A DNA stretch of 64,000 nt from positions 1 to 64,000 of the forward strand of contig NZ_VCQT01000019.1 in the NCBI RefSeq assembly GCF_005938655.1, in the 5' to 3' direction. The notes under the pieces are model-generated. The model saw nothing but the letters and a program-made list of their open reading frames with translations. It did not search any database and was not told where the DNA came from. Shown here piece after piece: positions 7,255-64,000 of the stretch (position 1 is the stretch's first letter; the number at the start of each line of letters is the position of its first letter). This stretch comes from Alloalcanivorax gelatiniphagus (GTDB lineage Bacteria; Pseudomonadota; Gammaproteobacteria; Pseudomonadales; Alcanivoracaceae). The translations under genes and the position numbers were made by a program.

Positions 7255-8394
7255 ATGCATTATTATTGGCGCCTGTCGGCCTTCTATTTTCTGTATTTCG
7301 GCCTGTTGGGCACCCTGGTGCCCTACTGGTCCCTGTACCTCAAGGACCTGGGCTTCTCCGCCACCACCATCGGCCTGCTGATGGCGGTGCCCCATCTGAC
7401 CAAGGTGGTGGCCCCCAATCTGTGGGGCTGGCTCGCCGACCGCTCCGGCGCGCGCATGCGCATTATCCGCCTGGGCAACCTGGCGGCGGCGGTGGCCTTT
7501 CTGCCGGTGTTCTGGGCCGACCAGATCTGGTCCATGGCCATCCTTCTCGCCGTGTTCAGCTTTTTCTGGAACGCGGTGCTGGCCCAGTTCGAGGTGGTCA
7601 CCCTGCACACCCTCGGCGACCAGGCCCACCGCTACAGCCAGGTGCGGGTGTGGGGCTCGCTGGGCTTTATCACCTGCGTGTTGCTGGTGGGGCTGGCCCT
7701 CGACCATCTGCCCATGGGCCTGCTGCCCTGGGTCATGTCGGTGCTGCTCTGGCTGCTGTGGCTGGCCACCCTGGCGCTGCCGGCGGAACGGGGCGAGCCC
7801 CGCCGTAACGCCGACGGCGGCCTGATCAAGCTGCTCAAACGCCGCGATATTCAGATCTTCATGCTGGTGGCCTTTCTGATGCAGGCCTCCCACGGCCCTT
7901 ACTACACCTTCTACAGCATCCACCTGGAAGAGATGGGCTTCCGCAAGGTCACCGTGGGCACGCTGTGGGCGGTGGCGGTGACCTCCGAGGTGGTGGCCTT
8001 TCTGATCATGCACCGCCTGATGACCCGCTTCGCCCTGAACCGCATCCTGCTGACCTGCCTGTTGCTGGCCAGCGTGCGCTGGGTGGTGGTGGCGCTGTGC
8101 GGCGACAGCATCCCCTGGCTCACCGCCGCCCAGCTGCTGCACTCCGCCAGCTACGCCAGTTTTCACGCCGGCGGCATCGCCTGGGTGCAACGGGCCTCCG
8201 GCCGCGCCTTCGCCGGCCAGGGCCAGGCGCTGTATTCCAGCCTGGGCTACGGTGCCGGCTGGGGCCTGGGCTCCGGCCTCACCGGCCTGGCCTGGCCCTA
8301 CCTGGGCGTCTACTGCTTCCTGGTGGCCGGCGCCCTGACCCTGGTCGCCGCCGCCCTCTGCACCCGCCTGCCGGTGGCCGCCGAAGCGCGATAA
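7255..8394 (+). CDS. MFS transporter, phenylpropionate-permease-like (HcaT type)
   Basis: 379 residues with about twelve hydrophobic helices and no signal peptide. The N-terminus (WRLSAFYFLYFGLLGTLVPYW) and the loop GWLADRSGARM match the MFS_1-like/HcaT group. The gene starts 9 bp after the aroC stop and probably belongs to the same transcript. Its homologue sits after aroC in Pseudomonas as well, where its substrate is undefined. Export or uptake of a small aromatic or nucleoside-like compound would fit the family, but the substrate is unknown. Confidence 0.85.
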   Translation: MHYYWRLSAFYFLYFGLLGTLVPYWSLYLKDLGFSATTIGLLMAVPHLTKVVAPNLWGWLADRSGARMRIIRLGNLAAAVAFLPVFWADQIWSMAILLAVFSFFWNAVLAQFEVVTLHTLGDQAHRYSQVRVWGSLGFITCVLLVGLALDHLPMGLLPWVMSVLLWLLWLATLALPAERGEPRRNADGGLIKLLKRRDIQIFMLVAFLMQASHGPYYTFYSIHLEEMGFRKVTVGTLWAVAVTSEVVAFLIMHRLMTRFALNRILLTCLLLASVRWVVVALCGDSIPWLTAAQLLHSASYASFHAGGIAWVQRASGRAFAGQGQALYSSLGYGAGWGLGSGLTGLAWPYLGVYCFLVAGALTLVAAALCTRLPVAAEAR

Positions 8395-8413
8395 ACCGCC
8401 CCCGGCGGCACCG

Positions 8414-8473
8414 GTAGGAGCGGCTTCAGCCGCGATCTTCGGCGTCCTTTATCGCGGCTAAAGCCGCTCCTAC
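8414..8473. repeat. REP pair, head to head
   Basis: Two copies of the REP palindrome in opposite orientation (8414-8437 and 8451-8473), both of the GGCT/AGCC stem class, separated by 13 bp. The pair can fold into one long hairpin. It lies just after the MFS gene and before the decayed ABC-F gene. Confidence 0.9.
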
Positions 8474-8539
8474 CGGGATAGTCGGGCGACGGCGGGATGA
8501 ACGCGGGCCCGTCAAGACCGGGCGTGCTCCAGGGGGCGC

Positions 8540-8665
8540 CACGCCGTTACGGCCCACCACGCCGGTATGGGAAGCGTCGAAGGTTTCATTGAGGTCCGCG
8601 AACAGCGGTCGGCCGTCCGGGAGCACGAAGGACAGGTCGTGCAGCGTGAGATACGGATTCGTCAT
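8540..8665 (-). pseudogene. N-terminal remnant of an ABC-F ATPase gene
   Basis: Read on the minus strand from an ATG at 8665, the frame gives an ABC-F-like start (NPYLTLHDLSFVLPDGRPLF, then DLNETFD). It runs into TGVVGRNGV, the first part of the Walker A motif usually completed by GKS. After residue 42 the similarity stops abruptly (APPGARP) and the frame runs into the REP pair. About 90 percent of a normal ABC-F gene (500 or more residues) is missing. The frame stays open to 8426, but no further domain is recognisable. ABC-F proteins act on ribosomes; this fragment cannot. Assignment rests on my recognition of the N-terminus. Confidence 0.6.
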
Positions 8666-8839
8666 GCGGATTTCCAGGGATGCCAGATTCTCCCCCTGCG
8701 TATGGGGGCCGGTGGAGACTGGCCGTCGTGAAGACGGCGGCATCAATGGCGCATTGGACGAACACCTCGGAGTGGATAAGCGGGGGGACGAGTATGACCG
8801 GTCCGCCGCGTTTTCCGCAGGGTGGCCGGGTTTGGGTGG

Positions 8840-8904
8840 TTAACCCCAGGTTAATCAGTGGCTCTTTTTATTCAATTTAATTAAGAAAACGACTTTCCTA
8901 TAGT
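8840..8904 (+). promoter_or_regulatory. LysR-type operator and promoter of the gentisate operon
   Basis: Perfect palindrome TTAACC-CCA-GGTTAA at 8840-8854, 21 bp gap, -35-like TTTAAT (8876-8881), 17 bp spacer, -10 TATAGT (8899-8904). The palindrome centre would lie near -65 from the start of transcription, the usual recognition site of LysR activators. The same architecture occurs inverted at 17397-17461 in front of the porin gene. Confidence 0.8.
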
Positions 8905-8960
8905 GCCTCGCAAGACACAACAACCCACGACACAACAACAATAGTCGCAGCGAGGTTGCT

Positions 8961-9998
8961 ATGGCAGGCAAGACCACCTCTGCGCGCCGACGCGCGTTCT
9001 ATCAACGGCTGGCGGCGTTCGAAGCCGCTCCCCTGTGGGAGGTGCTCGGCAACATCGTGCCGCGCCAGCCCACCTCCCATTACCACGCCCATCAATGGCA
9101 TTACTCGCAGTTGCGCCCGCTGCTGCTGGAAGCCGGTGATCTGCTTACCGCCGAGGAGGCGGAGCGCCGGGTGCTGGTGCTGGAAAACCCGTCCTGCCCC
9201 GGCCAGTCCCGGGCCACGCCCAGCCTCTATGCCGGCTTGCAGTTGATTCTGCCCGGTGAAACCGCCCCGGCGCACCGGCACACGCCGTCGGCGTTGCGCT
9301 TTCTTATCGAGGGCGAGCGCGGCTACACCTCGGTGGGCGGTGAGCGCACCACCATGCGCGAGGGCGACTTCGTGATCACCCCGGCCTGGGCCTGGCACGA
9401 CCACGGCAACGACGGCGATGAGCCGGTGATCTGGCTGGATGGGCTGGATATTCCGGTGATCAGCTATTTTGAGTCGGTGTTCTCCGACCCCCACGAAGAA
9501 AGCCGCCAGCCGCTCAGCCGGCCGGAGGGCGACTCCCTGGCCCGCTACGGCCAGAACCTGCTGCCCATCGACGCGCGCAGCCCCTACGGGCCGACCACGC
9601 CGATTTTCAATTATCCCTACGAGCGCACCCGGGACGCCCTTATCAAGGCCGCCCTGGGCGCCGCGCCGGATGAGCATTGGGGCACCACCCTGCGCTACGC
9701 CAACCCCATCGACGGCGGCTGGCCGATGCCCACCCTGGCCACCTGGATGACCCATCTGCGCAAGGGCGAGCAAACCACCGCCCTGCGTTCCACGGACAGC
9801 CAGGTGATGCACGTGGTGGAGGGCCGGGGCGAGATCACCATCGACGGCCAGGTGATCAGCTTCGGTCCCAAGGATGTGATCGCCATTCCCGGCTGGCAGT
9901 GGCGGCGTTTGTCGGCCAGCGAGGACTGCTTCCTGTTCTTTTTCTCGGATCGCGCTTTGCACGAGAAGCTCGGCTTCCACCGCGAAGAGCGCCAGTAA
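8961..9998 (+). CDS. Gentisate 1,2-dioxygenase
   Basis: 345 residues with two cupin domains, as in gentisate dioxygenases. The N-terminal cupin has GETAPAHRHTPSALRF with likely Fe(II) ligands His105 and His107, and His146 in AWHDHGN. The second cupin (about 270-335) lacks the full metal set, as is usual. It opens the ring of gentisate with O2 to give maleylpyruvate in the cytoplasm. It is the first gene after the promoter at 8840-8904, with a CGAGG ribosome site. A fumarylpyruvate-type hydrolase follows 19 bp downstream. Salicylate dioxygenases are close relatives, but the neighbouring hydroxylase and hydrolase favour gentisate. Confidence 0.92.
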   Translation: MAGKTTSARRRAFYQRLAAFEAAPLWEVLGNIVPRQPTSHYHAHQWHYSQLRPLLLEAGDLLTAEEAERRVLVLENPSCPGQSRATPSLYAGLQLILPGETAPAHRHTPSALRFLIEGERGYTSVGGERTTMREGDFVITPAWAWHDHGNDGDEPVIWLDGLDIPVISYFESVFSDPHEESRQPLSRPEGDSLARYGQNLLPIDARSPYGPTTPIFNYPYERTRDALIKAALGAAPDEHWGTTLRYANPIDGGWPMPTLATWMTHLRKGEQTTALRSTDSQVMHVVEGRGEITIDGQVISFGPKDVIAIPGWQWRRLSASEDCFLFFFSDRALHEKLGFHREERQ

Positions 9999-10017
9999 TA
10001 AACCCAGAGGTAATCAA

Positions 10018-10875
10018 ATGCGTATTTGTAGATTCGATAACGACCGCGTGGGCGTGGTCGTCGGCGACCGCGTGGCGGATGTCACCGAGGTGGTGAGCGA
10101 AGCGCTGCCGTCGCAACAGTGGCCGTTCTCCCGGGGCGATGCCTTTATCGCCGCGTTGCCGGAACTGCGCCAACGGTTGGAAGCGGCCGCCGCCGACGCG
10201 CCCAGCAGGCCGCTGGCCGAGGTGCGTCTGCTCAGCCCGGTGGCCAACCCGGGCAAGATCATCGCCGCGCCGGTGAACTACATGAAGCACGTGGAGGAGT
10301 CCCGCGAGGACGCCGGCATCAACTTCGGCACCGAGATCTCGCTGATCGACCGTTACGCCCTGTTTCTCAAGGCCAACAGCTCCATGGTCGGCGCCGGTGA
10401 AGGGGTGGAGATCCATCACGACGATGGCCGCCGCACCGATCACGAGGTGGAGCTGGCGCTGGTGATCGGCAAAACCGCCCGCAATGTCTCCGAGCAGGAC
10501 GCTCTTGACTACATCGCCGGTTACTTCATCGGCCTGGATATCACCATTCGCGGTACCGAGGATCGCAGCTATCGCAAATCCCTGGATACCTTCACGGTGC
10601 TCGGGCCCTGGCTGGTGACCGCCGATGAATTCGGTTCCCCGGAGTCGGTGGAGCTGGACATCAAGGTCAACGACGAAACCCGTCAGAACGCCAACACCCG
10701 CGATCTGATCTGGTCGGTGGCCAAGATTATTTCCTTCGCCTCCCACTCCTACACCCTGGAGCCCGGCGACGTGATTCTCACCGGCACCCCGGAAGGGGTG
10801 GCACCGATCCAGCGCGGTGACCGTATGGATGCCTGGATCGAACGGATCGGCGCCATGCGCGTGATGGTGCGCTGA
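10018..10875 (+). CDS. Fumarylacetoacetate hydrolase family protein, probable fumarylpyruvate or maleylpyruvate hydrolase
   Basis: 285 residues, FAH fold. The metal ligands of the family are visible as Glu143 and Glu145 in DHEVELALVIG and Asp174 in IGLDIT, with the loop ILTGTPEGV near the C-terminus. It would split the ring-opened product of gentisate to pyruvate and fumarate (or malate). No glutathione-dependent maleylpyruvate isomerase gene lies in the island, so it may act directly on maleylpyruvate, or the isomerase is elsewhere. It is co-transcribed with the dioxygenase (19 bp upstream) and the monooxygenase (26 bp downstream). Confidence 0.87.
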   Translation: MRICRFDNDRVGVVVGDRVADVTEVVSEALPSQQWPFSRGDAFIAALPELRQRLEAAAADAPSRPLAEVRLLSPVANPGKIIAAPVNYMKHVEESREDAGINFGTEISLIDRYALFLKANSSMVGAGEGVEIHHDDGRRTDHEVELALVIGKTARNVSEQDALDYIAGYFIGLDITIRGTEDRSYRKSLDTFTVLGPWLVTADEFGSPESVELDIKVNDETRQNANTRDLIWSVAKIISFASHSYTLEPGDVILTGTPEGVAPIQRGDRMDAWIERIGAMRVMVR

Positions 10876-10901
10876 AGTTCGGTGACAAGCGGAGTCCTTG
10901 C

Positions 10902-12086
10902 ATGAGCAAAAACAAAGTTCTGATTGCCGGCGGCGGCATCGGCGGCCTTACCGCCGCCGCCTGTCTGCTGCAGCGCGGCATCGACGTGGAGGTCTACGAA
11001 CAGGCCGATGTGCTGGGCGAGGTGGGCGCGGGCATCCAGGTCAGCGCCAATGCCAGCCGCGTGTATCGCCATATCGGGGTGCTGGACGCCCTGGTGGAGA
11101 CCGGCTCGCGGCCGGAAGCCTACCGGTTTCGTCTGTTCGACAGCGGCGAGGTGCTGCAGACCATTCCCCTGGGCGATGCCTACACCCGTCGCCACGGCGT
11201 GCCCTATGTGTCCGTGCACCGGGCCGATCTGCACCGGCTGCTGGTGGAGCGGGTGCGCGCCCTCAAGCCCGATGCCATCCACCTCGGCAAGGAGGTGGTG
11301 CGCTTCGAGGAGCAGGGTGGCGGGGTAACGCTGTATTTCGCCGATGGCGGACAGGCTGAGGGCGCCGTGCTGCTGGGCGCCGACGGCATCAAGTCGGCGA
11401 TCCGTGAGCAGATCGTCGGTGCCGCGCCGGTGACCTATACCGGCGATGCCTCCTGGCGGGTGGTGGTCAGCGCCGACGATGTGGACGAGGCGCACCGGCT
11501 GCGCACCGTGGACATCTGGGTGGGGCCCGGCAAACACGCGGTGACCTACCCCATGCGCGGCGACAGCCTGATCAATCTGGTCGGCTGCGTGGAGCACGAC
11601 CAGTGGGACGAGGAGTCCTGGGTGGCCAGCCGTCCCTGGGAGGAACTCAACGCGGACTTCCAGGGCTGGCATCCGGCCATCGGCGCGCTGATCGCGGCCG
11701 CTGACCGGGACCACTGCTATCGCTGGGCGATGAATAACCGCCCGCCGGTGGCCAACTGGACCGCCGGCGCCGCCACTCTGTTGGGCGACGCCGCCCATCC
11801 GACCTTGCCTTACATGGCCCAGGGCGCGGCCATGGCGGTGGAAGACGCGGCGGTGTTCGCCCGCGCCCTGGCGTCCGCGGGCACCGACCACCAAGCGCTG
11901 TTGTTGTATCAGCGCAACCGTATCGAGCGGACCACCCGCATCGTCAATGAATCGTCGGCCAACCGACGTCTTTTCCATCTCAATTCCACCGACGAACTGC
12001 GTCAGGAGTTCGCCAAACGGGATATGAACTCAGAGCGTTCCGCCTGGTTGTTTTCCTACGACCCGGTGAGCGTGGACATGCTCTGA
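10902..12086 (+). CDS. FAD-dependent ring hydroxylase, probable 3-hydroxybenzoate 6-hydroxylase
   Basis: 394 residues, single-component flavin monooxygenase of the salicylate/3-hydroxybenzoate hydroxylase group. It shows the FAD motif GGGIGG (residues 10-15), the DG motif in LGADGIKSAI, and the second FAD motif GDAAHPTLPYMAQGA (about 295-309). With NAD(P)H and O2 it would hydroxylate a monohydroxybenzoate to gentisate, feeding the dioxygenase two genes upstream. 3-Hydroxybenzoate is the favoured substrate because salicylate hydroxylases of this family normally produce catechol and no catechol gene is here. The substrate assignment is inference from context. Confidence 0.85.
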   Translation: MSKNKVLIAGGGIGGLTAAACLLQRGIDVEVYEQADVLGEVGAGIQVSANASRVYRHIGVLDALVETGSRPEAYRFRLFDSGEVLQTIPLGDAYTRRHGVPYVSVHRADLHRLLVERVRALKPDAIHLGKEVVRFEEQGGGVTLYFADGGQAEGAVLLGADGIKSAIREQIVGAAPVTYTGDASWRVVVSADDVDEAHRLRTVDIWVGPGKHAVTYPMRGDSLINLVGCVEHDQWDEESWVASRPWEELNADFQGWHPAIGALIAAADRDHCYRWAMNNRPPVANWTAGAATLLGDAAHPTLPYMAQGAAMAVEDAAVFARALASAGTDHQALLLYQRNRIERTTRIVNESSANRRLFHLNSTDELRQEFAKRDMNSERSAWLFSYDPVSVDML

Positions 12087-12201
12087 AACGATTGTTCTTA
12101 CGCAGCCGGAAGTGGCGGCGGCTAGCATGTCCGTTTTTCAAGCAGACGCCGCCACTCCCTAATAAAGTCCGATAACCGTGCCGGTTAAGGAGAAAAAACC
12201 A

Positions 12202-13167
12202 ATGATAATGACAATGACCCGTAAGCTGCTTACCGCCCTGATGCTGGCCGCCACCCTGACGGCCACGGCTCAGGCGCAATCCTTCGGCATCGGCACCGCC
12301 GGCGGCGGTTCGTCGACCTACAGCATCGGCGCCGCCATCGCCAATGTGATCTCCAACGCCACCGGCGACCAATACCTGGTGCAGCCCTATGGCGGCACCG
12401 GCCGGGTGATGCCGCTGGTCAACAGCGGCCGCACCGACTTCGGCCTGGCCAATATTCTTGAGGTCAGCAACGCCTATAACGGCGTCGGCGATTTCCAGGG
12501 CCACGAACACCCGGATCTGCGTGTGGTGGCGGTGCTTTATCCGTTCGACGTGGGCCTGTTCGTGCGCGAGGACGCGGAGTACCAGAGCATCAACGACATC
12601 AAGGGCGCGCGCATTTCCTCCGGCTACAGCGGCCAGCGGATTATCGGTGAGCTGATCGACGCCGCCCTGGCCAACGCCGACCTGACCATGGACGACATGC
12701 GCGCCGTGCCGACCACCAATCTGCTCTCCAACGCGGACGACTTCACCGCCGGGCGCACCGACGTGGGCTTCTTCGCGCTGGGCTCCGGCAAGCTGGACGA
12801 GGTCAACGCCTCGGTGGGTGGCATTCGCTTCCTGCCGTTCAATATCGACGCGGAAGCCCAGGCCCGCATGCAGGCGCTGATGCCGCAGACCTATGTGCGC
12901 GTGGTGCAACCCCGGGACAACCTGACCGGGCTGAAAAAGCCCGCGCCGATGATGGCCTACGATTACATTCTGTACGCCGGCAAGCATGTGGACGACGACG
13001 CGGTTTATCGGCTGGTGGAGGGCTTGATCGAGCACCGCCAGGCCCTGGCCGACAACTACGCCAACCTGAGCCGGCTGGAGCCGCGCAAGATGGCCAAGAA
13101 CGTGCGGCTTCCCTATCACCCGGGCGCCATCCGCTATTACCAGGAGCACGACCTCTGGTCGCGCTGA
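12202..13167 (+). CDS. TAXI-family TRAP transporter solute-binding protein
   Basis: 321 residues, signal peptide of about 26 residues ending AQAQS, then FGIGTAGGGSSTYSIGAAIA, the typical opening of TAXI periplasmic binding proteins. The ATG at 12202 is used because AAGGAG lies 9 bp upstream; a GTG at 12178 would give an atypical hydrophilic extension. It captures a substrate in the periplasm and delivers it to the fused TRAP permease encoded 23 bp downstream. By context the ligand is probably an aromatic acid that enters the gentisate route. TAXI binding proteins have few characterised ligands, so this is worth testing. Confidence 0.9.
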   Translation: MIMTMTRKLLTALMLAATLTATAQAQSFGIGTAGGGSSTYSIGAAIANVISNATGDQYLVQPYGGTGRVMPLVNSGRTDFGLANILEVSNAYNGVGDFQGHEHPDLRVVAVLYPFDVGLFVREDAEYQSINDIKGARISSGYSGQRIIGELIDAALANADLTMDDMRAVPTTNLLSNADDFTAGRTDVGFFALGSGKLDEVNASVGGIRFLPFNIDAEAQARMQALMPQTYVRVVQPRDNLTGLKKPAPMMAYDYILYAGKHVDDDAVYRLVEGLIEHRQALADNYANLSRLEPRKMAKNVRLPYHPGAIRYYQEHDLWSR

Positions 13168-13190
13168 GCCACACCGGCGAGTAGCGAATC

Positions 13191-15149
13191 ATGACCACAT
13201 TGACTGAAGCCAACGGCGCCGCCGGCAGTGCGGCTGCCCGGCGGGCGACCGTGCTGCGTGGGCTGGTGGCGGTATTGATCACCGCCCTCAGTCTGGGTTG
13301 GACCGCGGAGCTGCCGCGCCTGTTATGGGGCCGCGTGTACCTGGTACAGGAATTTTCCCTGGTGATCCTGGGGCTGTGCCTGGCGCTTATCTATCTGAGT
13401 CGGGACCTGCGCGGGCGTGACTACGCCGGCGCCCCGGCGCGGTTCAATCTGCTGATCGCGGCGCTGGTACTGGGCACCTGCTGGTATGCCGCCTGGCGCT
13501 ATAAGGTGCTGTCCGCGCAGATGTTCTACTTCCCGGTGGAGACCTTCATCATCGGCGCCATTATCGTGCCGGCGGTGATCGACGGTTTGCGTCGCATGGT
13601 GGGCTGGGCGCTGGTGCTGATCGTGCTGGCGTTCATTGCCTACGGACTGTGGGGCAATCTGATGCCGGCGCCGTTCACCGCCCGGCCCTGGACGGTGATG
13701 GATCTGGCTCCGCATCTGGTGCTCGACACCACCGCCATGGTGGGCCTGCCGATCACCATCGGCGTCACCGTGGTGATTCCGTTTATCTTCTTCGGTGTGC
13801 TGCTGAACCGCGCCGGCGGCGGCGAGTTCTTCTCCGATCTGGCGGTGGCGGCGGTGGGGCGGTTCCGTGGCGGTAGCGGCAAGATCGCCATTGTCGCCTC
13901 GGCGCTGTTCGGCACCATCTCCGGCAGCGCCGTGTCCAATGTGGTGTCCACCGGGGTGATCTCGATTCCATTGATGAAGCGCTCCGGCTTCAGCGGACGG
14001 GTGGCGGCGGCCACCGAGTCGGTGGCCTCCACCGGCGGGCAGTTCATGCCACCGGTGATGGGCGCCGCCGCCTTCCTGATGGCGGAACTGTCGCAGACCC
14101 CCTACGAGACCATTGTGCTGGCGGCGGTGCTGCCGGCGCTGTTCTTCTTCTTCGCGGTGTTCATGCAGTCCGATGCGGACGCCATCCACCAGAACGTGTC
14201 TCCCGTGCCCCGGGAGGAGCGCAAGCCGTTCAGCCAGGTGATGAAGCAGGGCGGGCATTTTCTGTTGCCGTTCGTGCTGCTGATCGTGCTGCTGTTCAAC
14301 TTCAACCAGTCTCCGGAACTGTCGGCGCTGGCGGCGGCGGTGCTGGTGGCGGTGCTCGGGCTGACCCGTGGCTATGGCGGTGAGCGCATCGCTTTCCGGG
14401 ACATTCTGGAAGCGTTCCGCAAAACCGGCCAGGCGTCCATGGAGATCCTGGCCATCGTCGCCGCCGCCGGTTTCGTTATCGGTGTGCTCAATGCCACCGG
14501 CGTGGTGTTCGCGCTCACCTCGATCATGGTCGACGTCGCCGGTGGCGATGTGGTGGTGCTGCTGGCACTGACGGCGGTGATCAGTATCGTGCTGGGCATG
14601 GGCATGCCCACCGTGGCGGTCTATGTATTGCTGGCGTCCCTGGTGGTGCCGGCGCTGGTGCACGCCGGCGTGCCCAAGCTGTCGGCGCATATGTTCGTGT
14701 TGTACTACGGCATGATGTCGATGATCACGCCGCCCATCGCCATCGCCGCCTACGCCGCCTCCAGCATCGCCGACGAGAAGCCGCTGGCGGTGTCGGTGAC
14801 CGCCATGCGCTACGCCTGGATCGCCTACCTGGTGCCGTTTATTTTCGTGTTCCGTCCCGAGATGTTGCTCAGCAAGAGCCATTTCGACGCGGCCGGATTG
14901 ACGGAGGTGGTGCTCGCCACCACGCTGTTGATCTTTATTCTCAACGGCGCCCTGGCCGGCTACCTGCGCGGTGCGCTGCGCTGGCCCTGGCGTCTGATAC
15001 TGGGCGTCACCGGGCTGGCCGTGTTTCTGGCCCTGGTCAGTGGCAGCCACGCCGTGCCGGCCTACGCCCTGGGGCTGGCGGTGATGGCGGCCTGTGCCGG
15101 GCGCGGTTATTGGCGCCGGCGCGCCTGGAACCCCCAGAGCCAGCCATGA
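13191..15149 (+). CDS. TRAP transporter permease, fused small and large subunits (4TM/12TM)
   Basis: 652 residues, the normal size of the fused DctQM permeases that partner TAXI binding proteins. The first four helices (to about residue 150) correspond to the small subunit. The rest is the large subunit with GGGEFFSDLAVAAVGR, FGTISGSAVSNVVSTG and the discontinuous-helix motif VLGMGMPTVAVYVLLASL. It works as a sodium-driven importer in the inner membrane. It lies 23 bp after its binding-protein gene. A hairpin with a T-run follows it (15191-15230), which may reduce transcription into the TauE-like gene. Confidence 0.93.
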   Translation: MTTLTEANGAAGSAAARRATVLRGLVAVLITALSLGWTAELPRLLWGRVYLVQEFSLVILGLCLALIYLSRDLRGRDYAGAPARFNLLIAALVLGTCWYAAWRYKVLSAQMFYFPVETFIIGAIIVPAVIDGLRRMVGWALVLIVLAFIAYGLWGNLMPAPFTARPWTVMDLAPHLVLDTTAMVGLPITIGVTVVIPFIFFGVLLNRAGGGEFFSDLAVAAVGRFRGGSGKIAIVASALFGTISGSAVSNVVSTGVISIPLMKRSGFSGRVAAATESVASTGGQFMPPVMGAAAFLMAELSQTPYETIVLAAVLPALFFFFAVFMQSDADAIHQNVSPVPREERKPFSQVMKQGGHFLLPFVLLIVLLFNFNQSPELSALAAAVLVAVLGLTRGYGGERIAFRDILEAFRKTGQASMEILAIVAAAGFVIGVLNATGVVFALTSIMVDVAGGDVVVLLALTAVISIVLGMGMPTVAVYVLLASLVVPALVHAGVPKLSAHMFVLYYGMMSMITPPIAIAAYAASSIADEKPLAVSVTAMRYAWIAYLVPFIFVFRPEMLLSKSHFDAAGLTEVVLATTLLIFILNGALAGYLRGALRWPWRLILGVTGLAVFLALVSGSHAVPAYALGLAVMAACAGRGYWRRRAWNPQSQP

Positions 15150-15190
15150 TGGCGGGCCACTGACCGCCGCCTTTCCCTGTCTCCCGGGTT

Positions 15191-15230
15191 GGCGTCCCCG
15201 CTCACGGTTCCGGCGAGGGGCGCCTTTTTT
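15191..15230 (+). terminator. Hairpin with T-run between TRAP permease and TauE-like gene
   Basis: GGCG-TCCCC pairs with GGGG-CGCC around a long GC-rich loop and is followed by TTTTTT ending at 15230. It is placed 15 bp before the next start codon, so it probably attenuates rather than isolates the last gene. Confidence 0.6.
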
Positions 15231-15244
15231 GTCAGGATTTCGCC

Positions 15245-16003
15245 TTGAGCACTCTCGTGTTGCCTTCGCTGGCCACCTTCGCCGCCCTCTGTCTCACCTT
15301 TGGTACCGCCGGCACCGTCAAAGGCCTGACCGGTTTCGGCATGCCGCTGGTGGGCATTCCGTTGACCATTCTGCTGCTGGACGTTCCGCCCACCACGGTG
15401 ATGGGCTGGATGCTGGCGCCGATCTTTATCACCAACCTGGCGCAGTTGATCAGCAGCCGCCATCGGGCGGCGGTGGTGGTGGGCCTGTGGCCGTTGTTCG
15501 CCGGTTTGCTGCTGGCGATGCTGGCCAGCGTGCCGCTGCTGGCACGGCTGCATCAGGATCAGCTGTCGCTGTTGGTGGGCGTGTTGGTGCTGTTGGTGAC
15601 CCTGTCGCAATTCATGCGGCCCTGGCGGGTGGCGCCGGCCTGGCGGCGGGCCTTTCTGTTCACCGCAGGCGTGGTCAGCGGCGCGGTGGGCGGCGCCACC
15701 TCGTTTTTCGGTTTTCCCGCCGTGCACGCCCTGCTGGCCGTGGACCTGGACAAGACCGGGTTCATCTTTTCGGTGAGCCTGATGTTTCTGGTGGGCGGGG
15801 TGGTGATCGCCGCGGCCCTGGGTGGCTACGGGCTGATCGGCGGCGCCGATCTGGTGATCTCGGCGCTGGTGGTGGCGCCGGCATTGGCCGGGCTGTGGCT
15901 GGGGCAGCGGCTGCGCGGCCGGCTGTCCCTGCTGGCGTTTCAGCGGCTGGTGCGGGTGGTATTGCTGCTGGTGGGTTGCAGCATGATTTACAAGGGGCTG
16001 TGA
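15245..16003 (+). CDS. TauE/SafE family permease
   Basis: 252 residues, about eight hydrophobic helices in two similar halves, with GTVKGLTGFGMPLVG near the N-terminus and GGATSFFGFPAVHALL in the second half, as in TauE/SafE (DUF81) proteins. The start is a TTG at 15245 with CAGGA 8 bp upstream; no ATG is available before the first conserved helix. Family members move sulfonates, sulfite or organic acids across the inner membrane. Being last in the aromatic operon suggests transport of an aromatic acid or a pathway product. Direction and substrate are unknown. Confidence 0.8.
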   Translation: MSTLVLPSLATFAALCLTFGTAGTVKGLTGFGMPLVGIPLTILLLDVPPTTVMGWMLAPIFITNLAQLISSRHRAAVVVGLWPLFAGLLLAMLASVPLLARLHQDQLSLLVGVLVLLVTLSQFMRPWRVAPAWRRAFLFTAGVVSGAVGGATSFFGFPAVHALLAVDLDKTGFIFSVSLMFLVGGVVIAAALGGYGLIGGADLVISALVVAPALAGLWLGQRLRGRLSLLAFQRLVRVVLLLVGCSMIYKGL

Positions 16004-16004
16004 A

Positions 16005-16027
16005 GGACCCGGCCGTTGGCCGGGTCC
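16005..16027. terminator. Bidirectional hairpin between convergent TauE-like and porin genes
   Basis: GGACCCGGCC (16005-16014) pairs perfectly with 16018-16027 around GTT. It starts 1 bp after the TauE-like stop and lies 22 bp past the porin stop on the other strand. No long T-run is present on either side. Confidence 0.55.
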
Positions 16028-16049
16028 GTGGTACTGGTCGGGAGGGTGC

Positions 16050-17261
16050 TCAGAACTGGTAGAGGAAGCTGGTTTGCAGACGATTGGCGGTTTCCGATTC
16101 GCCGTTGACCTGCTCCAGATCCACCCGTTGCAGCTCCACGCCCACCATCATGCGCGCGGTCACGTCCCAGATCAGATTGGCGAAGCCGTAATCCAGCGTT
16201 TCGAAGTGCTCGCCGTATTCGGTTTCCGGCAGGTCCTGCTTGAGCCGGGAGAAGCCCACCGAGGCGAACCAGTCACGGCTCAGCGGCTGGTTGAGAGAGA
16301 CGCCGAAGGCGGTCAGGTCCACGGTTTCCAGCTTGCCGTTTTCCACGTAAACGTCCGGCGCCCGGCGGTGGCCGGTATTGCCCGGGTTGCCCATGTAGTT
16401 GCCGATGCCGCTGCCGCCGATCACGTTGCCCTTGAAGGTGAGGCCGTTGAACAGCGGCAGGCTGATCTGCGCCAGGGCACCGTAACCGGTGGCGCTGTCG
16501 TCGACCTGGGCCACTTCATCGTTGGTGGACAGCTTGCGCGCCAGCAGCGACAGGGTGAACAGGCGCCGGTATTCGTAGCGCAGGGTCAGGTCCGGCAGCG
16601 GGCTGTCGCCGCTGGCGGCGCTGTTGGGGTCCGGCGAGACGTTGGCGCGGGCGATCACCGTGTCCGGGTCCTCCAGGGCCACCGCCAGGGTGCCTTTGCC
16701 GATGGAGCGGGTGTAGCGCAACTGCGCCTTGCGGTCGAAGGCGTAGCCCTTGGGGCTGCCCAGGGCCAGGGTGCGCGGCGTGGCCACGAAGCTCATGAAG
16801 TTGGTCCAGGTTTGACCGGCCAGCAAGCCGTTCATCTCGCCATAGGCATGGCGCAGATTGAACTTCTCGTCGGGCATGAAGTGCCCTTCGAAATAGGTGG
16901 TGAGCACGCCCCGGTCGGTGCGCGTATGGGTGCGGAAATTGAGCCGGGACTCCGCCGCCGTGAAACGGGTGCGGCCGTCGGTGCGGTTGCTGTCGTCGAG
17001 CACGTTGAACGGCGTGGTGGAGGCGCCCAGGTCGTAGTCGAAGTCGTAGAAGATGTCGAGTTTTGCGTAGCCGCCGAACGCCACGTCGGTGGCGGTGCCG
17101 GGAATGTTGAAGGTGCTGCGGTGGTTCCAGGGCGGGCCCACCCGGCTGGGTTCGCCGGTGACCACCGGCTGGCCGGCCTCGACCACGTCGAAAGCGTGGC
17201 TTTGCGGCGCCGCCAGCCAGGTGGAGGCCAGCACCAGAGGAACCAGAGGTTTGAATTTCAT
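16050..17261 (-). CDS. Outer-membrane porin, DcaP-like
   Basis: 403 residues, signal peptide of 23 residues ending SHA, then a beta-barrel pattern with alternating hydrophobic residues and a C-terminal Phe as in outer-membrane proteins. Segments GGYAKLDIFYDFDYDLG and ESRLNFRTHTRT resemble the DcaP family of trimeric porins, which take up carboxylic acids. The gene is driven leftward by a promoter module almost identical to that of the gentisate operon, so it is most likely the outer-membrane entry route for the aromatic substrate. Substrate is inferred from regulation only. Confidence 0.85.
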   Translation of the reverse strand: MKFKPLVPLVLASTWLAAPQSHAFDVVEAGQPVVTGEPSRVGPPWNHRSTFNIPGTATDVAFGGYAKLDIFYDFDYDLGASTTPFNVLDDSNRTDGRTRFTAAESRLNFRTHTRTDRGVLTTYFEGHFMPDEKFNLRHAYGEMNGLLAGQTWTNFMSFVATPRTLALGSPKGYAFDRKAQLRYTRSIGKGTLAVALEDPDTVIARANVSPDPNSAASGDSPLPDLTLRYEYRRLFTLSLLARKLSTNDEVAQVDDSATGYGALAQISLPLFNGLTFKGNVIGGSGIGNYMGNPGNTGHRRAPDVYVENGKLETVDLTAFGVSLNQPLSRDWFASVGFSRLKQDLPETEYGEHFETLDYGFANLIWDVTARMMVGVELQRVDLEQVNGESETANRLQTSFLYQF

Positions 17262-17396
17262 GGCGATTTCCTTGTTTCTCTTATGAATGTTGTTATTCGC
17301 GTTTTGCGTTTTTCAGGCACGAAGCGTCCCGCCCCGGGGCCGGAGCCACGGGAAAAAACAGGGCGGGGGAGGCGTGGGAAGTGCCGTTGAACCGGG

Positions 17397-17461
17397 ACTA
17401 TAGGAAAGGCTTTTTATTAATTAAATTGAAAAAACGGGACCCGAAGTTAACCTTGGGTTAA
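17397..17461 (-). promoter_or_regulatory. LysR-type operator and promoter of the porin gene
   Basis: Mirror copy of the module at 8840-8904. On the minus strand: palindrome TTAACC-N3-GGTTAA (17461-17447), 21 bp gap, TTTAAT (17425-17420), 17 bp spacer, TATAGT (17402-17397), then the porin ATG 136 bp further on. The palindrome ends 20 bp before the LysR ATG at 17482 on the other strand, so a bound regulator could also repress its own gene. Confidence 0.8.
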
Positions 17462-17481
17462 CCAATAACAAGGAGAACCCC

Positions 17482-18411
17482 ATGGACCGGCGTCTTAAGC
17501 TGCGTCATTTCCAGTGCTTTCTGTCCGCCGCGCGATCCCGCTATCTCCGCGAAGCGGCCACCGCCCTGAACATCACCCAGGCGGCGGTGACCAAAACCCT
17601 CAATGAGCTTGAAGAGATCGTGGGCCACCGGCTGGTGGTGCGGGACCGTTCCGGGGTCAAGCTGACCCACCAGGGGGAGCTGTTCTTTCATTACGCGGCG
17701 GCCGGCATGGCGTCCCTGGAGCAGGGCTACGACGGCCTGCAGGCGGACCCCAGCGCACCGCGCATCGAAGTGCGCCTGGGCGTGCTGCCCACGGTGGCGG
17801 CGCGCTTTCTGCCCCGCGCCACCAGCCGCTTTCTGGAGGAAACCCGGCGCTCGGTGAATTTCTCCCTGCTCACCGGCCATAACCAGCATCTTCTGGAGCT
17901 GCTGCACCGGGGCAAGGTGGACCTGGTGGTGGCGCGGATCGGCTCGCCGGACGACATGCAGCAGCTGGAATTCAAGCACCTCTACGCGGAGCCGCTGGTG
18001 CTGGTGGCCCGGGCCGGCCATCCGCTGTGTCAGTCCGGCGGCGTGCGGCTGCGCGATGTGAGCGGCTATCCGTTTCTATTGCCGCCGGTGGGCACGCGCA
18101 TCCGGCCCCTGGTCGAGCAGGCGCTGACCAATCTGGGCATCCCGATGCCGGGCACCGTGATCGAAACCGTCTCCAACACCTTCGGGCGCTCTTTTCTGCG
18201 CGGCTCCGACGCGGTGTGGATGATTTCCTACGGGGTGGTGGAGGATTACATCGAGGCGGGCCTGCTCAGCCTGCTCGCCGACCCGATTGAGAACACCAGT
18301 GACCCGGTGGGGGTGATCCGGCGCAAGGACCAGGAGATGGACGCCGCCACCCGTCAGATCACGCAGATTCTGTTGTCCCAGACCCGCCACCTGCGGCCGC
18401 TGGGGCAGTGA
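17482..18411 (+). CDS. LysR-family regulator, PcaQ-like, of the aromatic island
   Basis: 309 residues. The N-terminal winged helix-turn-helix (MDRRLKLRHFQCFL, then EAATALNITQAAVTKTLNELE) resembles PcaQ, the regulator of protocatechuate genes. The effector domain starts near residue 90. The gene has AAGGAG before its ATG and is divergent from the porin; the TTAACC-N3-GGTTAA operator lies just upstream. A second copy of that operator stands before the gentisate operon 8.6 kb away. I infer that it activates both and autoregulates. The inducer is probably a hydroxybenzoate or gentisate; not shown by sequence. Confidence 0.85.
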   Translation: MDRRLKLRHFQCFLSAARSRYLREAATALNITQAAVTKTLNELEEIVGHRLVVRDRSGVKLTHQGELFFHYAAAGMASLEQGYDGLQADPSAPRIEVRLGVLPTVAARFLPRATSRFLEETRRSVNFSLLTGHNQHLLELLHRGKVDLVVARIGSPDDMQQLEFKHLYAEPLVLVARAGHPLCQSGGVRLRDVSGYPFLLPPVGTRIRPLVEQALTNLGIPMPGTVIETVSNTFGRSFLRGSDAVWMISYGVVEDYIEAGLLSLLADPIENTSDPVGVIRRKDQEMDAATRQITQILLSQTRHLRPLGQ

Positions 18412-18414
18412 CCC

Positions 18415-19284
18415 TTAGCCGTCGGCCTGCAGAATCTCCAGAAACGCCCGCGCCGCGTTGGAGCGGCTGCGGCCCGGGTGGGTGACCACCCCCAGTTTGC
18501 GCACCGGCAGCGGCGTGTCCACGTTCAGGGTCACCACCTGATCGTCGAGCATGGTGGCGGGCAGCACGCTCCAGCCCAGGCCGATGGCGACCATCATATG
18601 GATGGTCTCCAGATAGTTGGTGGACATGGAAATATTCAGCGCCGCCTGCTGTTCGTGGAACAACTGTTCGACGATACCCCGGGTGAAGGTGGCCGGGGAG
18701 GGCAGGATGGCGCTGTAGCGGGTCAGGGCATCCAGGGTCAGGTCCCGGTGCCGGGTCAGCGGGTGCTCCGGGGCGCACATGAACACCAGCGGATCGTTCC
18801 ACACGGTCTGGGTGTGCAGGCGGCCGTCCGGGCGGGGCGGCAGGGTCACCACGCCCAGTTCCAGGTCGCCGTGGAGCACCCCTTCCCAGGCTTCCTCGGA
18901 GTCGATGAACTGGATATCCAGGCGCACCTCCGGGTAGTCCCGGGAAAAGCGCCGCAGCACCGGCGGCAGACGGTGCAGGCCGATATGGTGGCTGGTGCCG
19001 ATGCGCAGGGTGCCGGCCACCCGGCCGGTAAGGTTGCTGATCGCCCGGCCCATGTCCTCCAGGTCGAGCAGCACCTGACGGGCCCGGGGCAGCAGCGCCT
19101 CGCCGGCCTCGGTGAGGCGGATGCGGCGGCCCACCCGGTCGAACAGGCGGGTGCCCAGTTGCTGCTCCAGCTGGGCGATCCGTTTACTCACCGCCGGCTG
19201 GGTGAGGAACAGTCGCTCGGCGGCGGTGGAGAACGAGCCGCTTTCGGCCACGGCGGTGAAAACCGTGAGGGAGTGGGTGTCCAT
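18415..19284 (-). CDS. LysR-family regulator divergent from leuC
   Basis: 289 residues with N-terminal helix-turn-helix (SFSTAAERLFLTQPAVSKRIAQLE) and a LysR substrate-binding domain of the CysB/CbbR shape. A LysR gene occupies the same place before leuC in Pseudomonas aeruginosa, so it is part of the conserved neighbourhood and not of the aromatic island, although only 3 bp separate the two convergent LysR genes. It may control leuCDB. An imperfect inverted repeat in the shared intergenic region (GATAACCAAAT at 19342-19352 and ATTGGAATTATC at 19378-19389) is a possible binding site. Confidence 0.85.
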   Translation of the reverse strand: MDTHSLTVFTAVAESGSFSTAAERLFLTQPAVSKRIAQLEQQLGTRLFDRVGRRIRLTEAGEALLPRARQVLLDLEDMGRAISNLTGRVAGTLRIGTSHHIGLHRLPPVLRRFSRDYPEVRLDIQFIDSEEAWEGVLHGDLELGVVTLPPRPDGRLHTQTVWNDPLVFMCAPEHPLTRHRDLTLDALTRYSAILPSPATFTRGIVEQLFHEQQAALNISMSTNYLETIHMMVAIGLGWSVLPATMLDDQVVTLNVDTPLPVRKLGVVTHPGRSRSNAARAFLEILQADG

Positions 19285-59984: not shown

Positions 59985-60063
59985 TCTGACAGCGGCGAAC
60001 TGTTTAACGGTTGATTGAAGTTTCGTTCTCCAGCCGGGACGCAATCACGATGGCGCCGGAAGG

Positions 60064-60480
60064 GATCGCGACTAAAGTCGCTCCTACAGGTCAACACTGG
60101 TCTCCCCAGAGGTGGCTGGGGGTGTTGTAGGAGCGACTTTAGTCGCGATGAAGATGGCGCCGAGGGGATCGCGGCTAAAGCCGCTCCTACATCTCAACAC
60201 TGGCCTCCCCGGACAGTGGCTGCGGTTGTTGTAGGAGCGACTTTAGTCGCGATAACGATGGTGCCGGAGGTGATCGCGGCTGAAGCCGCTCCTACATCTC
60301 AACACTAGCCTCCCCGGACAGTGGTTGGGGTTGTTGTAGGAGCGACTTTAGTCGCGATGAAGATGGCGCCGAGGGGATCGCGACTAAAGTCGCTCCTACA
60401 GTTCAACACTAGCCTCCCCGGACAGTGGTTGTGGTTGTTGTAGGAGCGACTTTAGTCGCGATAACAATGGCGCCGGAGGT
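60064..60480. repeat. Four tandem repeats of about 104 bp, each with two opposed REP units
   Basis: Units begin at 60064, 60167, 60272 and 60376. Each holds a REP in minus sense (60064-60087, 60167-60190, 60272-60295, 60376-60399), a spacer with CTCAACACTGGCCTCCCC-like sequence, a REP in plus sense (60127-60149, 60231-60253, 60336-60358, 60440-60462) and a tail like GATGGCGCCG. The tail also occurs alone at 60049. Minus-sense units alternate between GGCT/AGCC and GACT/AGTC stems, each self-compensated. It lies in a gene-free 880-bp region (59985-60865) between the flippase-like and sulfatase genes. Confidence 0.93.
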
Positions 60481-62719: not shown

Positions 62720-63667
62720 ATGTGGCAATTGCAGCAGTTGGTTCAGTTCCGCGCGGTCTATGAGCACCGCAGCCTGTCGGCGGCGGCGCGGGCGCTGGGC
62801 GTCACCCAGCCGGCGCTGAGCCGGGTCCTGCAGAAACTGGAGGAGGAGCTGGGCGCGCCGCTGTTCCAGCGCCATACCCGTTCGTTGCGTCCCACCGAGT
62901 TCGCCTCCGTGTTGTACCGGCAGGCGTCACGGGTGCTGCACGAGAGCGCCGGCCTGGACCAGATGGTGGAGCGCTTCCGCCAGGGCCGGGAGGGGCAGGT
63001 GCGGCTGGGCTGCGGGCCGTTCGTGCCGGACTTGCTGTCCCGGGAGCTGGCGCTGGCCATGGAGCGGGCCGGGCTGAAGCTGCATCTGGATGTGCACACC
63101 GACCATTTCGAGGCCCTGCGCGAAGGGTTGTACGGCTACCGCTATGATTTTCTGCTCTACGACGTGCGTGGCCGGGCCAATCTGCCCGACCTGGACGACG
63201 CGGTGGTGGAACCGTTGCTGGACCTGCCGCTGAGAATGGTGGCGCCGGCGGACTGGCTGCGCGGCGAGGCCCGGGCGGCGCTGGACTCGGAGGCGGCGGC
63301 GCTGGCGTTCGTGGCCGGCCGGCCCTGGGCGATGCCCCGGGTGTCGCCGGATTACGGCCGCCAGGCGGCGCCCTGGTTCCACCGCTTGCTGATGGAGCGC
63401 AATGGCGCTGAATTCCTGATGCCGACGCTGAGCGCCTGTGTGGGGCTGTGCCGGGCCGGCCACGCCCTGACGCTGGCGCCGGACGCACTGATCCGCGAAG
63501 AGCTGGCGGCGGGCTGGCTGGTGTCGCTGCCCCTGGATGTGGGCGCCACCGCCCACACCTGCGCCTACCGGTTGCGCTCGCGGCCCCTGTCCCAGGCCGC
63601 CGGCCGGCTGTGGCGGCTACTGGCGGAGGGCGGCCTGGGGCTGCGCGAGCAGACCGTTATACCTTAG
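62720..63667 (+). CDS. LysR-family regulator divergent from sulfatase
   Basis: 315 residues. N-terminal helix-turn-helix (SLSAAARALGVTQPALSRVLQKLEEEL), then a LysR effector-binding domain starting near 90. ATG at 62720 with GGGAGG upstream; an in-frame ATG at 62651 would put 23 low-complexity residues in front. It probably controls the sulfatase through the palindrome at 62623-62644. The gene ends (Val-Ile-Pro-stop) in the first copy of a 14-bp tandem repeat. Confidence 0.85.
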   Translation: MWQLQQLVQFRAVYEHRSLSAAARALGVTQPALSRVLQKLEEELGAPLFQRHTRSLRPTEFASVLYRQASRVLHESAGLDQMVERFRQGREGQVRLGCGPFVPDLLSRELALAMERAGLKLHLDVHTDHFEALREGLYGYRYDFLLYDVRGRANLPDLDDAVVEPLLDLPLRMVAPADWLRGEARAALDSEAAALAFVAGRPWAMPRVSPDYGRQAAPWFHRLLMERNGAEFLMPTLSACVGLCRAGHALTLAPDALIREELAAGWLVSLPLDVGATAHTCAYRLRSRPLSQAAGRLWRLLAEGGLGLREQTVIP

Positions 63668-63711
63668 GCGTTATACCTTAGGCGTTATACCTTAGGCGTT
63701 ATACCTTAGGC
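63656..63711. repeat. Four perfect copies of a 14-bp tandem repeat
   Basis: GTTATACCTTAGGC repeated at 63656, 63670, 63684 and 63698. The first copy holds the stop codon of the LysR gene (TAG). The last copy holds the stop codon of the convergent MFS gene (TAA on the minus strand). Confidence 0.95.
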
Positions 63712-64000
63712 GTCACGCCAATCCGCAACAGACTGATCAGCGCCGCCGCCAAGGAGAAGCCGGCGGCCATCAGCAGCGCCGGGGTGATGGCGTCGTCCAT
63801 CAGGCCGAACATCAGCGCGGTGAGGGCCGCGCCCAGGGTCTGGCCAAGCAGCCGGGTGGTGCCCTGCATGCCGCCGGCGCCGCCACTGCGCTGGCGCGGC
63901 GCGGAGCCGATGATGGCGCGGTTGTTGGGGGCCTGGAAAAAGCCGAAGCCGAACCCGCACAGCGCCATGCAGCCGAGAATCACCCCCAGCGGTGCCTGAT
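63699..64000 (-). CDS. MFS drug/metabolite exporter, C-terminal end (cut by window)
   Basis: About 100 residues at the C-terminus of a major facilitator protein. The helix-loop GFGFGFFQAPNNRAIIGSAP and then GGAGGMQGTTRLLGQTLGAALTAL is typical of the DHA2 (14-helix, EmrB/QacA) group at its final helices. The reading frame stays open to the window edge, so the rest lies to the right. Ends Thr-Pro-Lys-Val-stop within the 14-bp repeat. Confidence 0.85.
   Translation of the reverse strand, partial: QAPLGVILGCMALCGFGFGFFQAPNNRAIIGSAPRQRSGGAGGMQGTTRLLGQTLGAALTALMFGLMDDAITPALLMAAGFSLAAALISLLRIGVTPKV

Follow-up and report, generated by a model that had tools for sequence, protein, structure and literature searches.

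The window considered here, that is, the whole stretch of 64,000 nucleotides from contig NZ_VCQT01000019.1 of Alloalcanivorax gelatiniphagus, carries a gentisate catabolic operon, a porin gene and a LysR-type regulator gene, together with two mirrored copies of one promoter-like module. Both copies follow a common plan, TTAACC-N3-GGTTAA, 21 bp, TTTAAT, 17 bp and TATAGT, and they occupy positions 8840-8904 on the forward strand and 17461-17397 on the reverse strand. The rightward copy begins with the palindrome TTAACCCCAGGTTAA (8840-8854), predicted to be the site in the gentisate operon promoter that LysR recognises with high affinity, and continues with TTTAAT at 8876-8881 and the -10 hexamer TATAGT at 8899-8904, with a predicted start near 8911. 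In the leftward copy the palindrome TTAACCCAAGGTTAA (17461-17447) faces the porin, and its other end lies 20 bp before the ATG of the LysR gene; TTTAAT follows at 17425-17420 and TATAGT at 17402-17397, with a predicted start near 17390. In each module TTTAAT is a weak -35 hexamer contained in an TTCAATTTAAT element (8871-8881 on the forward strand and, in the same layout, 17420-17430 on the reverse strand), which is the predicted second contact of a LysR tetramer.

Direct reading thus bore out the original prediction, which had described this mirrored arrangement with its shared palindrome, gap, hexamers and spacer. Conservation of the intervening sequence had been claimed as well, and it is evident: beyond the box 37 of 50 columns are alike between the two copies (25 of 38 once both hexamers are excluded), and the highest value from 20,000 first-order Markov shuffles was 29, so that 37 was never reached. 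The palindrome centre, placed by the prediction near -65, was computed to lie at -64 if transcription is assumed to start 7 nt past the -10, and on this assumption both modules have a T-N11-A palindrome near -64/-65 upstream of a weak promoter.

The left module faces an operon whose first gene, gtdA (8961-9998, forward strand), encodes gentisate 1,2-dioxygenase (TIGR02272, 467 bits against a cut-off of 442.1) and is the only such match in the genome. It is followed on the same strand by genes for an FAH-family hydrolase (10018-10875; Pfam FAA_hydrolase), probably a fumarylpyruvate or maleylpyruvate hydrolase as far as its substrate can be inferred, and for an FAD monooxygenase (10902-12086), probably a 3-hydroxybenzoate 6-monooxygenase, whose best NCBIfam match, NF006021, scores 301 bits and is under the cut-off of 459. 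Three transport genes complete the series: a TAXI-type TRAP solute-binding protein (12178-13167; TIGR02122), a fused TRAP permease (13191-15149; TIGR02123) and a TauE/SafE-type permease (15245-16003; Pfam TauE). On the reverse strand, and faced by the right module, is the gene for a DcaP-like outer-membrane porin (16050-17261; Pfam DcaP 7.6e-11, Porin_2 4.9e-10). The LysR gene, lysR1 (17482-18411, forward strand), encodes a PcaQ-like regulator which is the predicted activator of both promoters.

The modules are rare. Sites matching TTAACCN3GGTTAA with up to two mismatches number two in the window, against a shuffle mean of 0.25 (two or more occurred in 4 of 100 shuffles), and across the 4.2-Mb genome there are two exact sites and three with one mismatch. 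When the complete 65-bp module was sought there with up to three mismatches, just these two sites were found. The genome-wide operator scan that the original prediction had suggested therefore recovered both known modules and no further site in this genome, the others being found only in relatives. The three one-mismatch palindromes were treated as chance occurrences: two overlap open frames, and the third lies 61 bp before a frame that by eye resembles a response regulator, without a matching -10.

The PcaQ-like regulator and the modules in related genomes

The LysR protein encoded at 17482 contains both the HTH_1 and the LysR_substrate domain, and it is the genome's only match over the cut-off of the PcaQ model (TIGR02424, 323.3 bits, cut-off 303.8). 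Its neighbours are gentisate genes and not pca genes, so that the genomic context of a PcaQ is lacking, and no match to the protocatechuate 3,4-dioxygenase beta subunit (TIGR02422) was detected in its own genome. The name PcaQ, which automatic annotation would give it, is therefore probably wrong, and it is very likely that a regulator which trusted automatic models would call PcaQ controls a different pathway.

This regulator has few close relatives. Among the 94 related genomes searched, it was found at E <=1e-30 in 2 of the 46 genomes from the same genus and family, and two more distant matches, 34-38% identical, came from outside the family. The same two Alcanivoracaceae genomes are the ones, of 46, in which gtdA is over its cut-off, and one more genome has a weak match (18.5 bits). 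At E <=1e-70, the clade was present in 3 of 390 genomes sampled in the order and 1 of 369 in the class, the window's own genome being counted in each. Besides the window protein, the clade comprises the regulators of Alloalcanivorax marinus (330.4 bits with TIGR02424), Natronospirillum operosum (308.7 bits; 67% identical to the window protein) and genome G318 (287.9 bits, which is below 303.8; 61% identical), three of the four members thus scoring above the PcaQ cut-off.

For a wider comparison we used the best 80 of 464 relatives, mostly from Mesorhizobium. A PcaG/PcaH relative is present in 75 of the 80 fetched stretches, gtdA in two (L024 and L025), a PobA relative only in two, and none of these in one. 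Trees were built from chosen loci of these 80 besides L024 and L025, with 22 loci in the first and 17 in the larger tree. The four gentisate-linked LysR proteins form one clade with support of 100/99 in the first tree, which had one outgroup, and of 90/99 after the MhbR/GtdR-type regulators of other gentisate loci were added. The best larger tree joins the clade to PcaQ (84/61) and sets MhbR/GtdR apart (99/97) on a branch that meets the long outgroup; a single clade common to all gentisate LysR proteins is not the best tree and is not rejected by the approximately unbiased test (p-AU 0.213). Long-branch warnings apply to L088 with this clade in the first tree and to MhbR/GtdR with the outgroup in the larger one.

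The paired modules accompany this LysR in the four clade genomes read; the agreement is exact in three of them and looser in the remaining one. A search for the box, N16 and TTCAATTTAAT with up to three mismatches returned exactly two sites, both perfect, in each of G000, G012 and G318. In A. marinus both copies are present with identical spacing and face gtdA and the porin. In G318 the two modules, pointing away from each other, separate gtdA from a TAXI-type frame and have -35/-10 spacers of 17 and 16. Natronospirillum has a perfect palindrome 44 bp before TATAGT, facing the TAXI-TRAP-lysR genes, and the sequence between has diverged; on its gtdA side we found CTCAATTTAAT, 17 bp and CATACT (TTTAAT-17-CATACT), with a degenerate box in register. 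Over these eight modules TTCAATTTAAT is identical and in register in six, and TCAATTTAAT in seven. In all paired genomes the gentisate operon is faced by one copy, and the second points towards a transport gene. By comparison, in the stretches read (2.1-9.5 kb each) of four genus-mates without this LysR, neither the exact box (TTAACN5GTTAA) nor TTCAATTTAAT was found.

Several features of the two more distant genomes were noted beside these modules. An aldehyde dehydrogenase gene is present in the gentisate operons of Natronospirillum (L025, 3289-4731) and G318 (L110, 3079-4590) and not in the window operon, which suggests an aromatic aldehyde as an upstream substrate in those two organisms. 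The position of lysR varies as well, after the TAXI-TRAP genes in Natronospirillum and after the gtdA operon in G318, and feedback on the regulator may therefore differ between lineages. G318 also has a second, classical gentisate cluster (L110, 7180-14488) with a gtdA 52% identical, an FAH gene, maiA and a small gene that is MarR-like by eye; beside it are an additional TAXI-TRAP pair and a different LysR, whose 322 bits exceed the PcaQ cut-off, and the two PcaQ-like regulators of this genome are ~3.5 kb apart.

The modules also resemble the upstream regions of pcaQ-like genes. A TAAC-N6-GTTA box (up to one mismatch) lies within 300 bp upstream of the LysR gene in 53 of the 80 loci, mostly near-copies from Mesorhizobium, and other spacings from 2 to 10 occur in 0 to 7 loci. 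For a matrix, L078 was left out as a fragment unlike the others, and from the remaining 52 we kept 6 at <85% identity, with the box shortened to 15 bp. This matrix ranked both modules joint first of 127,860 window positions, at 18.3 each; the runner-up, at 10.0, was the right palindrome read in reverse, and 7.4 came next. The palindrome contributes most of the score, and with a 16-bp box the modules were still on top (11.4 vs 5.8). In the fragments from upstream of alphaproteobacterial pcaQ genes, CATTTTAC recurs together with a -10-like stretch, and their distance from the box is close to that seen in the modules. By sequence, the window boxes thus agree with a PcaQ-type operator both in the core (TAAC-N5/6-GTTA) and in its spacing from the -10, which in the compared regions is itself inferred.

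A predicted regulon of two promoters

Taken together, these comparisons make it highly probable, in our view, that a single small regulon is driven from the two mirrored modules, both acting as promoters that depend on an activator, the PcaQ-like LysR 17482-18411. The central claim of the original prediction, namely that this protein activates the gentisate operon and the porin together, is favoured by the way in which the module pair tracks this LysR in the four clade genomes, by the lack of an exact box or TTCAATTTAAT in the stretches read of the four genus-mates without it, and by the fact that the module is PcaQ-promoter-like just as the LysR is PcaQ-like. The comparison thus supports the idea of a real and conserved two-promoter LysR regulon.

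A mechanism can be proposed by analogy with LysR activators in general, in which one dimer sits on the palindrome and a second over the -35 element. On each module a LysR tetramer would hold the palindrome near -64 with one dimer, and its second dimer would contact the A+T-rich TTCAATTTAATTAA stretch overlapping the weak -35. An inducer would then relax the bend, and RNA polymerase would be recruited to the TATAGT -10. As an outcome, the gentisate/3-hydroxybenzoate operon with its TRAP importer and the DcaP-like porin might be switched on simultaneously. The inducer would most likely be the ring-cleavage product maleylpyruvate, or possibly gentisate, and we judge the chances of maleylpyruvate to be about evenly balanced against those of gentisate or another compound. 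The right-hand box may in addition set the level of LysR itself; such autoregulation is likely, as this box ends 20 bp before the LysR ATG.

A number of observations weigh against this two-promoter reading. The porin, which had been named as the second target, belongs to the pair only in Alloalcanivorax; outside the genus a transporter frame takes its place. In G318, the TAXI-type frame (L110, 213-773) encodes 186 amino acids, against 317 for the one in Natronospirillum, and aligns to the family over no more than positions 1-128 out of 289, so this target may be incomplete, and it is the transporter side that has a spacer of 16 and not 17. With up to three mismatches allowed, the search for the box, N16 and TTCAATTTAAT gave no site in G368, the genome of Natronospirillum, both of whose modules depart in one part, and TATAGT itself is present in 5 of the 8 modules. 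The sources of the pcaQ matrix were not uniform (four loci with PcaG/PcaH, one with PobA only and one with neither), and its downstream part alone, without the box, did not single out the modules in the window. No such box was found beside the gtdA-linked LysR genes of two Pseudomonas plasmid clusters. Consensus sigma-70 promoters (at least 9 of 12 matches) were not found in 8000-18600, which is compatible with weak promoters in need of an activator; this is weak evidence, because the shuffles averaged only 1.7. Binding and activation by the LysR are themselves predictions made from sequence, and activation should not be taken for granted: the sign of control is uncertain because the PcaQ of Pseudomonas syringae is reported to recognise GGTTATG in monomeric form and to be a repressor of two genes (PMC7532196).

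Three other explanations were weighed. It is plausible to ask whether the right palindrome mainly serves lysR in autorepression, the porin being driven independently and the shared -35 and -10 stemming from a duplicated promoter fragment. The position of the box just before the lysR ATG is indeed a common place for LysR autoregulation. We nevertheless consider a role mainly at lysR unlikely: the porin-side copy of A. marinus also keeps the box, gap, -35, spacer and -10, and the second modules of Natronospirillum and G318 are directed at transporter frames that lie a long way from lysR. Moreover, copies within Alloalcanivorax are similar to about the same degree whether paralogous (51 and 50 of 65 positions identical) or orthologous (48 and 54 of 65), which fits a common constraint on both copies, although gene conversion could have the same effect.

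That the boxes are bound by another regulator, such as the product of the adjacent, convergent LysR gene lysR2 (18415-19284) or another LysR of the genome, where 30 stretches match TIGR02424 at E <=0.001, seems very improbable. The candidate next door is a poor one, as lysR2 occurs in 12 of 13 genus genomes, most of them without lysR1, and the four genus-mates mentioned above, which have lysR2 and not lysR1, show neither the exact box nor TTCAATTTAAT in the stretch read beside it; the boxes track lysR1 across families. Finally, the idea that the copies are recombination repeats of an invertible or mobile segment, which their mutually inverted orientation inside a 10-kb island might evoke, can practically be dismissed, since their longest identical run is 14 bp, the enclosed genes that A. 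marinus also has stand there in the same order and orientation, the island ends ~440 bp and ~940 bp past the copies, and promoter-like spacing is kept across families. Paired promoters of one LysR regulon thus remain our preferred explanation.

The inserted island and its surroundings

The modules lie inside an inserted island at 8402-18398 (ends approximate), between an MFS transporter gene and lysR2. In two genus-mates (G002 and G003) the MFS gene abuts lysR2, and their blastn homology to the window stops at 8401 and restarts at 18399; an inserted piece of ~10.0 kb is therefore indicated. The original prediction held that the modules bound the aromatic island. They do enclose the operon and the porin; the island as a whole is not enclosed, and the regulator gene lies outside the pair.

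A. marinus has the same genes at the same place, minus the TauE/SafE-type permease gene that ends the window operon (15245-16003), a difference that represents gain or loss within the island. A. marinus also lacks the segment of ~440 bp that separates the left module from the MFS gene here (8402-8839), and its box overlaps the stop of that gene. The sole frame of >90 amino acids in this segment (8426-8746, reverse strand, 106 amino acids) had no Pfam or PADLOC match, and by eye it resembles the remnant of an ABC-F gene. As to the pathway itself, a genome search for maleylpyruvate isomerase (TIGR01262) gave nothing over the cut-off (best 66.7 vs 171.05), and the FAH-family hydrolase may therefore act on maleylpyruvate directly.

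Two repeats were noted far from this locus in the window: a 104-bp tandem array at 60040-60480 with a GTAGGAGCGACTTTAGTCGCGA-like core, which by eye looks like repetitive extragenic palindromic (REP) elements, and a perfect 14-bp tandem repeat, CGTTATACCTTAGG, of 4.2 copies at 63655-63713.

Comparison with known LysR systems

The ingredients of this locus are already known, namely LysR activators, palindromes at -65, PcaQ boxes and gentisate operons. We noticed no description of this LysR clade or of its paired promoters in the literature searched, most subscription papers being outside that search. The locus yields a testable two-promoter regulon for the use of gentisate and 3-hydroxybenzoate in Alloalcanivorax, and its fixed module provides an operator for target prediction in draft genomes. 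PcaQ, MhbR-GtdR and this clade, some of which have nearly the same box and different ring-cleavage pathways, also form a tractable set for studying how LysR inducer specificity changes while operators stay. A broader proposal, which we hold with somewhat less than even confidence, is that a third lineage of the PcaQ/MhbR LysR group switched from protocatechuate to gentisate catabolism and kept the ancestral promoter geometry. Its minimal regulon would consist, in each genome, of a catabolic promoter and an uptake promoter, with the uptake target swapped between lineages (porin or TAXI transporter) and the module retained, and the inducer would have changed from carboxymuconate to maleylpyruvate.

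PcaQ itself responds to a product of ring cleavage. A paper on Cupriavidus necator, by contrast, gives protocatechuate as its ligand (PMC12839019). The letters of the published PcaQ sites were taken from PMC5002191 and PMC3572157, and the S. fredii region took no part in the comparison. PcaQ-dependent pca promoters (Sinorhizobium, Agrobacterium, Mesorhizobium, Burkholderiales) resemble the window modules in the box core TAAC..GTTA, in a CAWTTTA element and in a -10-like stretch that is similarly placed, and the window boxes share their 5-bp centre with ATAACN5GTTAT, the consensus for Burkholderiales (PMC3572157). The differences are that the window modules accompany gentisate and not protocatechuate genes, that the outer box bases are T/A vs A/T, and that a 6-bp centre predominates in the loci read, mostly from Mesorhizobium (53 of 80, these being the best of 464), vs 5 bp here.

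Among the regulators of gentisate operons, MhbR of Klebsiella pneumoniae is described as a LysR activator (PMC3572157), and GtdR of C. necator as responding to 3-maleylpyruvate (PMC11603403). The MhbR/GtdR type is like the window system in that the LysR gene adjoins the gentisate operon, and enteric loci have a related box: a perfect 16-bp palindrome, ATAACCTCCAGGTTAT (ATAACC-N4-GGTTAT), stands before the operon, identical in all three loci read (L137, L139 and L140; Salmonella, Klebsiella and Escherichia coli plasmids), with CATTGTAC downstream of it. A literature search for the letters of this enteric box gave no paper. These regulators differ in being 26-34% identical to the window LysR, in the scores of the four scanned (175-202 bits vs the PcaQ cut-off of 303.8) and in forming a separate clade in the best tree. 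Annotated clusters with a LysR of this type include maiA and have an MFS transporter in or near them, whereas the window operon has neither.

Plasmid records with a gtdA relative numbered 105, and 14 regions were opened, two of them without annotation; names of the GtdR type for plasmid proteins are labels given in this analysis. Other gentisate clusters read on these plasmids lie near IclR and MarR genes in Neorhizobium, a MarR gene in Caballeronia, a two-component pair in Azospirillum and TetR genes in Sagittula, and in Novosphingobium and Cupriavidus the LysR genes are >2 kb away.

Classical LysR activator promoters, such as those of CatR, BenM and OccR, have a recognition site near -65 and an activation site at -35. 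As in those promoters, a T-N11-A palindrome lies near -64 in the window modules and a further element overlaps the -35, but the operon and the uptake gene have two separate copies here, and not one shared intergenic region.

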